Origin: a virus
Reading direction: 5' to 3' (one strand)
Length of the DNA: 64,000 bases
IMG/VR virus record: IMGVR_UViG_3300042387_001265
Span: 1-64,000 of that record
In this document: piece by piece, positions 2,132 to 63,021 of the stretch
Numbering within the stretch: the stretch's first letter is position 1
Layout of the letters: the number at the start of each line of letters is the position of its first letter
Translations under genes and position numbers: made by a program
The notes under the pieces: generated by a model
The model's database searches: none
Seen by the model: the letters and a program-made list of their open reading frames with translations, nothing else
Told to the model about the DNA's origin: nothing

Positions 2132-2329
2132 TTATTTACCAGATTGTCTTCTTTCTTCTTTTACTCTTTCTGCTTCTTCGTTCAAATGTTTGATTAACAA
2201 ATCTATGTAAACTTGTCTTTCCCAAGGTATCAAATTATCCAATTCAGTCAAACTATATTTGTGATGCTGCATCAAAGCAAAGTTAGTTTGAAAGTAATTA
2301 CCTAATGTCTCATGACTAAATGTTATACG
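2132..2329 (-). CDS. Probable -1 frameshift extension of gp26 (gp51-position tail chaperone domain)
   Basis: This is the -1 frame downstream of the slippery site at 2335-2329. Translation resumes at Arg (codon 2329-2327) and runs about 65 codons to a TAA at 2134-2132. The peptide has a hydrophobic/acidic core with LTELDNLIPWERQVYIDLL and a charged C-terminal helix. The frame also has an open start at 2377, but that start lacks a ribosome-binding site and would lie inside gp26. A short product made by frameshifting just before the tape-measure gene is the layout of lambda gpG-GT-type tail chaperones. T4 has gene 51 in this position. Independent initiation cannot be excluded. Confidence 0.6.
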   Translation of the reverse strand, partial: RITFSHETLGNYFQTNFALMQHHKYSLTELDNLIPWERQVYIDLLIKHLNEEAERVKEERRQSGK

Positions 2330-3054
2330 AAAAAACTTTGGACGCCTTCCAAAGTGATGTCTTCGTCGTAACCGCATTTATCGCAATGAAAGTGAACATC
2401 TTTTTTCAGTTTAGGCAATGATGTAAAAAATGCAGAGAGTTTTTCTAAATCACCCTGTTTCATATTTTCAACAAATTCAACAAGTTCTTCTTTTCGTGTA
2501 TCTTTAGCGTAGTAAACTTGTTCATCATCATAAATGTAATCAATACATGAAACAATTACGTTTAAAATCTGTTGCATATCTTGACCGTCTAAGTCATTAC
2601 TATCAATTGAGCCAAATGTAGGATACTTTAAAACAACACCAATTTTGTCTGTAATCTGTATCTTGTTAGAGTGATTTTCATTTCTTGTTGGAGTAATCTC
2701 TAAAACATTAACATCAATTTTTACCAAATTGCCACATTTCTTCTCTTCACCTTTTTCCATTACATCATTATTACAATTGAATCTTAGATTTACGACCTCT
2801 CCGATTGATCTTGCACGAAGTTGTAAAAACAAATATTCAATGTCAAAAGTGGCCATGTTATCAATATCGATATCGTCAAGCACACAGTTTCTTAAAACTT
2901 GTTTGATGGCATTGATCGTATCTTTAGGCTCACTTGTCTCTGCTGCCATCAAAAATATTTTCTGTTCTTTTACCAGAAAAGGTCTAAATCTAATTGTTTG
3001 TTTATTAGAAATTAGTGTTGTTTCGTAAATAGGTACGTCTAGTTTAGGTAACAT
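2323..3054 (-). CDS. 26: Baseplate hub/tail assembly protein, T4 gp26-like
   Basis: The 243-residue product resembles the T4 gp26 baseplate family. The N-terminus has LPKLDVPIYETTL and a segment (IRFRPFLVKEQKIFLMA) typical of this family in T4-like phages, and the length is close to T4 gp26 (208). The C-terminal part contains HCDKCGYD, with a CxxC pair, and an earlier segment has Cys residues (CNNDVMEKGEEKKC), so metal binding is possible. A good ribosome-binding site (GAGGA) precedes the ATG at 3054. The gene ends with a T TTT TTC heptamer directly before the stop, giving an alternative C-terminus by -1 frameshift. The family assignment is from sequence pattern; the chaperone role is inferred from context. 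Confidence 0.75.
   Translation of the reverse strand: MLPKLDVPIYETTLISNKQTIRFRPFLVKEQKIFLMAAETSEPKDTINAIKQVLRNCVLDDIDIDNMATFDIEYLFLQLRARSIGEVVNLRFNCNNDVMEKGEEKKCGNLVKIDVNVLEITPTRNENHSNKIQITDKIGVVLKYPTFGSIDSNDLDGQDMQQILNVIVSCIDYIYDDEQVYYAKDTRKEELVEFVENMKQGDLEKLSAFFTSLPKLKKDVHFHCDKCGYDEDITLEGVQSFFV
2329..2335 (-). promoter_or_regulatory. Candidate -1 programmed ribosomal frameshift site (T TTT TTC)
   Basis: On the minus strand the last gp26 codons read AGT TTT TTC GTA TAA. The heptamer T TTT TTC fits the X XXY YYZ rule exactly in the zero frame, two codons before the stop. Slipping back one base leads into a 65-codon open frame that looks like real protein. No clear downstream stem-loop or pseudoknot was found by eye, so efficiency is unknown. 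Confidence 0.6.
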
Positions 3055-61112: not shown

Positions 61113-61547
61113 ATGAGCAAACTTGATGATGTATTACAGATGTGGGCAACTGATTCTATCATTGATAGAACTGAACCTGGTAAAGCACTGATTGACATTC
61201 CAAAACTTCATTCGAAGTATTTAAACATTCTTTCTTCACATAGATTGTTAGTCAAAGAAGCCGAATTTCAATATAACAAATGGCGTAAATTAAAGTGGGA
61301 ATACTACACTGGCAAACTTGACGAAGAATTGTTGCATCATTATGGATGGCAACCATTTCCTTTTACACTCAAATCTGAAATCAATACATACTTAGAAGCA
61401 GACGAAGATATCAATAAGTATCTTGCTAGAAAACTATTACATGAAGAAATTGTGGAAGTATGCCAAGCAATCATAAAAGAACTAAACAACCGAACATGGG
61501 AGCTTCGGTCATTCATTGACTGGGAAAAGTTTATTCAAGGTGTTTGA
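61113..61547 (+). CDS. uvsY: Recombination mediator UvsY
   Basis: The 144-residue product matches UvsY: DDVLQMWATDSIIDRTEPGK, IPKLHSKYLNILSSHRLLVK, EAEFQYNKWRKLKWEYYTGK, INTYLEADEDINKYLAR and an end (KELNNRTWELRSFIDWEKFI) as in other family members. T4 UvsY is 137 residues. It loads UvsX recombinase on gp32-coated single strands. A strong ribosome-binding site (CGGAGG) precedes it and it overlaps UvsW. Confidence 0.92.
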   Translation: MSKLDDVLQMWATDSIIDRTEPGKALIDIPKLHSKYLNILSSHRLLVKEAEFQYNKWRKLKWEYYTGKLDEELLHHYGWQPFPFTLKSEINTYLEADEDINKYLARKLLHEEIVEVCQAIIKELNNRTWELRSFIDWEKFIQGV

Positions 61548-63021
61548 TTTAATTTTACGAAAACAGAACGAAGCGTTCATAAGAATTGATTGTGAGAAGA
61601 GTGTCGCTTACGAACTCTCTTCTTATTTTGAATTTTTTGTTCCTGGTTATCAGTTCATGCCAACATACAAGAATAAATTGTGGGATGGAAAAGTTCGTCT
61701 TTTCGATTTGCGTTCACATACAATTTATTCTGGTCTGTTGCCGTACATTGAAAAGTTTTGCGCTGAAAGAGAATATAAGTATGAGATTGACTCAGCAATC
61801 ACTGCAACTGAGAATTTCTCAGCATTAGAAGCTAAAGAGTTTATAGACAGTCTTGAACTGCACAAAACCATTATACAAGAAGGTGCAAGAGAATATCAAG
61901 TAAAAGCATTCATTTCTGCCGTTAGAAATAGAAGAATGTTGTTATTATCACCGACTGGTTCAGGTAAGTCCTTCATTTTGTATCTCATTCTGAGATATGT
62001 TCAGCATAAAAAACACAAAAAAGGTTTGTTGATTGTTCCGACAACATCACTTGTTGAACAGATGTACTCCGATTTTGCATCTTACGGATACGATTCAGAG
62101 AAATATTGTCATCGTCAATATTCTGGTAAAGACAAGAACACAGACAAGTTTCTTACAATCACCACATGGCAATCAATCTATAAAAATCCACCAGAATACT
62201 TTGAGCAGTTTGATTTTGTTTTTGGTGATGAAGCACACCAGTTCAAAGCAAAGTCTCTGACTACCATTATGTCTGGATTAAAGAATGCATCTTACAGAAT
62301 TGGATGTACAGGAACAATTGATGGTACACAAACACACAAACTTGTTCTTGAGGGATTGTTTGGACCAGTTTATCAATCAACGACAACAGCTAAACTTATT
62401 GAAGATAAGATGTTAGCAGAATTTAAAATAAAATGTTTGATATTAAAATATTCTGAAGAAGTTTGTAAACAGTCCAGAGCATGGGACTATCAGAGTGAAA
62501 TAAACTACATAGTTAGTAACAAAGCACGAAATGAATTTATTCGTAATCTTACACTATCACTAGAGGGCAATTCTCTTGTGCTATTTAATTTGGTTGAAAA
62601 ACATGGCAAACAACTTCACAAACTCATTGAAGAGAAAGCTAGTAATAGGCATGTTTTTTTTGTGTATGGTGGAACAGATGTTCAAGTCCGTGAACAAGTT
62701 CGTGCCATTACCGAAAAAGAAAATAACGCCATCATCGTGGCTTCTTACGGCACTTTTTCTACCGGTATTAATATACGTAATCTTCATAACGTTATTTTTG
62801 CCTCACCGTCTAAGTCGAGAGTTAGAAATTTACAATCAATTGGAAGAGGCTTGCGAATTGGAGACAACAAAAAAGAAGCGGTACTATTTGATATAGCAGA
62901 TGATTTTCGCATAGGTAAACATGTTAATTTCACATTGAAACATTTTGCCGACCGTGTTAAAATATATGATGGAGAAAAGTTCAAATACAAATTCTACAAC
63001 ATAGAGGTCAAAAATGCATAA
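61540..63021 (+). CDS. uvsW: RNA-DNA/recombination helicase UvsW
   Basis: About 493 residues from a GTG at 61540; an in-frame TTG at 61516 would also be possible. The N-terminal domain (IRIDCEKSVAYELSSYFEFF; YKNKLWDGKVRLFDLRSH) is that of T4 UvsW. The helicase core has Walker A SPTGSGKSF, motif II FGDEAHQF, motif III GCTGT, SYGTFSTGINIRNLHNVIFA and motif VI QSIGRGLRIG. UvsW unwinds R-loops and branched DNA in the switch from origin- to recombination-dependent replication. Overlaps UvsY by 8 bases. Confidence 0.93.
   Translation: MFDLILRKQNEAFIRIDCEKSVAYELSSYFEFFVPGYQFMPTYKNKLWDGKVRLFDLRSHTIYSGLLPYIEKFCAEREYKYEIDSAITATENFSALEAKEFIDSLELHKTIIQEGAREYQVKAFISAVRNRRMLLLSPTGSGKSFILYLILRYVQHKKHKKGLLIVPTTSLVEQMYSDFASYGYDSEKYCHRQYSGKDKNTDKFLTITTWQSIYKNPPEYFEQFDFVFGDEAHQFKAKSLTTIMSGLKNASYRIGCTGTIDGTQTHKLVLEGLFGPVYQSTTTAKLIEDKMLAEFKIKCLILKYSEEVCKQSRAWDYQSEINYIVSNKARNEFIRNLTLSLEGNSLVLFNLVEKHGKQLHKLIEEKASNRHVFFVYGGTDVQVREQVRAITEKENNAIIVASYGTFSTGINIRNLHNVIFASPSKSRVRNLQSIGRGLRIGDNKKEAVLFDIADDFRIGKHVNFTLKHFADRVKIYDGEKFKYKFYNIEVKNA

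Follow-up and report, generated by a model that had tools for sequence, protein, structure and literature searches.

The gp26 gene of an aquatic T4-like virus very probably gives rise to two tail-assembly chaperones, TAC-N and TAC-NC, through a -1 programmed ribosomal frameshift of the lambda gpG/gpGT type. We analyzed a 64,000-nucleotide stretch of DNA (the window), which belongs to an 80,233-base metagenomic virus record (IMGVR_UViG_3300042387_001265). Our reading draws on comparative sequence evidence: the slippery heptamer at the end of gp26 is conserved, the gp51 domain that follows lies in the -1 frame, often without a start of its own, and the gp51 protein of T-even phages is a colinear fusion of the two parts. 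The slippage itself and its efficiency are what we infer; the anatomy of the locus, its conservation, the homology of the two domains, and, for most relatives, the lack of any start codon that could serve the C domain are established directly.

RESULTS

A slippery heptamer at the 3' end of gp26 is followed by a gp51 domain in the -1 frame

The locus lies on the minus strand of the window. The gp26 gene (the short form TAC-N, 243 aa; 3054-2323), identified by PF12322, phrog_150, and its predicted fold, ends in GAA GGC GTC CAA AGT TTT TTC GTA TAA. The initial annotation had pointed to a T TTT TTC in frame at this end, and direct reading bore this out, with the heptamer in phase (X XXY YYZ) at 2335-2329 and conserved in relatives. 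It had also put the heptamer two codons ahead of the stop; however, we found only one codon (GTA) in between. The zero-frame stop TAA that closes the short form, again read directly (2325-2323), has a counterpart at this position in most relatives. The -1 extension (2335-2132), which holds the gp51 domain (TAC-C), runs for 65 codons past the heptamer to a TAA stop at 2134-2132, and its assignment is supported by phrog_634, by alignment, and by conservation of the frame. The 65 codons and the fusion of about 307 residues that had been proposed were both confirmed (242 + 65 = 307 residues), and the predicted junction peptide of the gp26-gp51-domain fusion contains VQSFFRITFSHETLG. A Shine-Dalgarno (SD)-like GGAAGG, a candidate stimulator, is found 9 nt 5' of the heptamer (2350-2345).

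We counted 28 in-phase T6/A6 heptamers in the window's open reading frames (ORFs) of at least 100 aa. Among them, the gp26 site alone combined a position one codon from a gene stop with an extended -1 frame (67 codons). Two other heptamers, at 62656 and 62869, had -1 extensions of more than 24 codons; they were rejected as further frameshift genes, being located within ORFs 61516-63021 and 62576-62896, which overlap each other and cannot both be real genes. Judged by eye, ORF 61516-63021 resembles a uvsW-type helicase.

On the 3' side of the chaperone, a long tape-measure-like ORF (2128-2, minus strand) begins 3 nt past the stop of the gp51 domain and is incomplete at the window edge. The initial annotation had described the next gene as resembling a tape measure. 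A long ORF does follow directly, but its profile match to the phrog_58 tape measure family was weak (E 0.01). We also detected an internal phage lysozyme domain in this ORF (PF00959, E 5.9e-7). The ORF, in the position of a tape measure gene, holds a Pro-Ser-rich repeat stretch as well.

The two parts match the gp26 and gp51 families and are joined in T-even gp51

In profile searches, gp26 matched PF12322 (T4_baseplate) with an E value of 4.6e-61 and phrog_150 with an E value of 2.5e-68, and the phrog_150 profile reached into the C domain. The extension was assigned to the gp51 family (phrog_634, E 1.2e-27), and 495 phage records matched it. AlphaFold2 predicted a confident model for gp26 (pLDDT 90.5), and this model resembled gp26-type proteins among viral predicted structures. 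No solved structure matched the gp26 model significantly; the HK97 tail assembly chaperone (PDB 2ob9) had the top probability among the PDB hits listed (0.63), at a non-significant E value of 1.4 over 62 columns. Solved structures searched by sequence with the gp26 profile gave no match either.

T4 gp26 and gp51 have homologous domains, gp26 corresponding to TAC-N and gp51 to TAC-N and TAC-C in one chain, as tested on RB18 and its relatives. Unlike in the window, genes 26 and 51 of the T-even phage RB18 are separate, on opposite strands, and without a frameshift; with both domains held by RB18 gp51, the earlier remark that T4 is not described as using frameshifting for these genes holds. A profile search placed PF12322 over residues 1-201 of RB18 gp51 and phrog_634 over residues 147-246. 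Residue 200 of T-even gp51 was where the alignment of the gp26 profile from the window's family ended (E 8e-12) and where that of the extension profile began (E 1e-7). Since the two alignments meet at residue 200, we reasoned that T-even gp51 is the same fusion in a single gene, with its junction at the slip site.

The heptamer and the frame relation are conserved across relatives

We retrieved a first sample of 80 virus contigs by means of the extension. This query included the slip-site residues; therefore, to reduce the bias, further samples were picked by gp26 alone, minus its last 12-13 residues, using the proteins of the window, S-PM2, Mendera, and AS-zj. Annotated loci from several families were also included in the total. 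Our totals thus pool the 80 extension-selected loci with the rest and contain many near-duplicates, and for the folding and SD tests the set was thinned to 116 nonredundant loci.

T TTT TT(C/T/A) was present at the slip site in 79 of the 80 extension-selected contigs and, over all samples, in phase at the gp26 3' end in 210/216 readable loci. The gp51 domain was in the -1 frame in 214/215 loci. These counts, from sequence comparison, support the proposal that a -1 frameshift joins gp26 to a short downstream domain; the heptamer is conserved in related phages, and no -1-frame stop separates the joined domains. Among the first 80 relatives, six carried T TTT TTT, a run of seven Ts (L031, L077, L078, L019, L021, and L024), and five carried T TTT TTA (L012, L029, L032, L059, and L066). 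The slip site of contig L043 reads T GTT TTC.

In the Ackermannviridae and Vibrio phage D504 (L086, L215, L216, and L210), N NTT TTC replaces T TTT TTC. By eye, a gp51-like domain was recognizable in the -1 frame of all four loci; by profile, the Ackermannviridae domain was weak in two of three and clear in the third, in the -1 frame. In public records, including those of S-PM2, S-WAM2, AS-zj, and S-SM2, the extension appears as a short separate gene or as hypothetical, or it is left unannotated.

An independent gene, transcriptional slippage, and sequencing error are improbable

The gp51 domain might instead be an independent small gene, translated from an internal start of its own or by ribosomes that reinitiate once past the gp26 stop, as its annotation as a short separate gene in the S-PM2, Mosig, Melnitz, DLP_6, S-SM2, and MED4-213 records would have it. 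S-PM2 has an ATG right after the gp26 stop, and the window has a -1-frame ATG at 2377, upstream of the extension. However, the ATG at 2377, the only upstream start in the window, arises from AAA TGC, codons belonging to the conserved Cys motif of gp26, and initiation there would yield an unconserved N-terminus. Across relatives, 116 of 210 loci lack an ATG, GTG, or TTG upstream or in the first eight extension codons, and upstream the -1 frame often stays open for only 0-4 codons, whereas in the alignment the protein is conserved starting at the heptamer. The internal Met used in some annotations is not conserved (Ile in L018, a near relative, and in L157 and L181; Val in L165). Together with the fusion of both domains in T-even gp51, these observations make a separate gene very unlikely.

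The frames could also be joined if RNA polymerase slipped on the T6 stretch, since what is conserved is a homopolymer that reaches seven Ts in a few relatives. We regard this as very improbable: the run keeps to six or seven bases in the loci that we read, runs of six bases are short for RNA polymerase slippage, and the N NTT TTC of the Ackermannviridae, distant relatives whose variant is weaker at the P site, keeps the -1 relation with just four Ts. Moreover, an SD-like element precedes the site in the family, and hairpins follow it at a spacing suited to ribosomes. Homopolymer runs are error-prone in sequencing, and a true gene with one continuous frame could have been split by a sequencing or assembly error. 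One such case may be Stenotrophomonas phage L205 (2248-2300), in which TTTTTC stands against TTTTTTC in two near-identical records and the arrangement is broken; the missing T is probably a sequencing error. For the family, this explanation has practically no probability and is refuted by the same frame relation in 214/215 loci, from many independent assemblies as well as isolate genomes. A -1 ribosomal frameshift at the heptamer is the reading that we adopt.

Candidate stimulatory signals vary among lineages

The candidate SD-like element has a spacing from the heptamer close to that known for dnaX. A GG at -11/-10 was present in 116/116 nonredundant relatives, in which it encodes the invariant Gly of gp26. 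Over the 116 loci, anti-SD pairing was stronger than expected, at -6.4 kcal/mol versus -5.0 kcal/mol in synonymous shuffles, a difference whose p-value is inflated by relatedness. The window's own element was no stronger than its Glu-Gly codons demand, as judged by synonymous shuffles.

Downstream of the heptamer, folding exceeded that of synonymous shuffles family-wide (mean z -1.65 for an 80-nt window starting 5 nt past the heptamer; control window z ~0). The excess stemmed from distant relatives, with a mean z of -1.97 in the 36 most distant sequences. Hairpins of -8 kcal/mol or lower starting at +9 to +16 were found in 28% of sequences versus 6% of shuffles. In the distant groups, the hairpins start ~5-7 nt past the heptamer, and their sequences differ from group to group. 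A single hairpin common to all relatives was considered and rejected: pair counts at fixed columns were near independence, and strong hairpins were lineage-specific.

The window's clade, taken as the ten sequences closest to the window and counting the window itself, showed no hairpin in this region relative to synonymous shuffles (mean z +0.56). We likewise rejected a conserved hairpin 3' of the window's own slip site, near which folding energies equaled those of synonymous shuffles. We also discarded a window stem at ~+45 to +88, which lies far from the slip site and gave a z of -3.1 against synonymous shuffles in one sub-window and of -1.0 against dinucleotide shuffles. Because the window's clade is without a downstream hairpin, the efficiency of frameshifting there may be low or may depend on the SD-like element alone.

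DISCUSSION

We propose that the majority of ribosomes would halt at the TAA at 2325-2323 to give TAC-N, the 243-aa gp26. In a minority, the Phe-tRNAs on TTT in the P site and on TTC in the A site would slip back by one base on T TTT TTC, possibly with help from the SD-like element 9 nt 5' of the heptamer. The slipped ribosomes would then read the -1 frame to produce TAC-NC, a 307-aa protein bearing the gp51 domain. The chaperone role is suggested by homology and position: TAC-NC would presumably recruit the tape measure protein encoded directly downstream, and TAC-N would coat that protein until the tail tube polymerises.

This proposed arrangement is akin to lambda gpG/gpGT, as the initial annotation had said, in that a short and a long chaperone would be made from one gene by -1 frameshifting, beside the tape measure gene in lambda and a tape-measure-like ORF in the window. 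The tail chaperone frameshift of this type was reportedly described by Xu, Hendrix and Duda in 2004. The lambda slippery heptamer is G GGA AAG, unlike the T TTT TTC of the window, and our profile searches of gp26 and the extension found no lambda-type chaperone family. T7 gene 10, whose frameshift site is G GUU UUC, offers a likeness in decoding: there too, slippage takes place with a Phe-tRNA on UUC in the A site, and the site resembles the N NTT TTC of the Ackermannviridae. T7 gene 10, however, is a capsid gene and not a chaperone gene, and the window has T TTT TTC instead.

The nearest precedent lies within the T4-like phages. PolyT -1 frameshift signals in their TAC-N genes are attributed to Vladimirov, Gautam and Davidson (2022) in the Pakpunavirus paper (PMC12846349), and the PRFect paper (PMC10885494) cites the same work for a two-gene arrangement in some T4-like phages. 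As far as that system is described in these citing papers, it agrees with ours in the gp26/gp51 domains as TAC-N/TAC-C, the polyT slippery site near the TAC-N 3' end, the -1 frame, and a place upstream of the tape measure gene, a position held by the tape-measure-like ORF in the window; we see no difference in kind from it, the window being another virus. Because the mechanism has, on this account, already been published for T4-like phages, our finding is not new in kind: a mechanism already known has been correctly recognized in another virus.

What may be new, in a minor way, is the SD-like element 9 nt upstream together with the lineage-specific hairpins of distant relatives, which are absent from the window's clade. 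We tentatively suggest, with confidence falling somewhat short of even, that the heptamer is fixed across the family while its stimulators turn over: many cyanophage relatives would carry mutually unrelated, lineage-specific hairpins 5-7 nt past the site, and the window's clade the SD-like element alone. If true, the family would be a natural series in which to measure the gain and loss of stimulators around a fixed slip site.

Conservation at this scale also indicates that what many records from cyanophages and their relatives list as "gp51, baseplate hub assembly catalyst" is the end of a frameshifted chaperone, not a separate gene. The corresponding annotation error is recurrent: the extension is cut short, labeled hypothetical, or left out. 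What is known of tail assembly is unchanged, and our results support the view that T4 encodes the same pair of chaperones in two genes, as gp26 and gp51.
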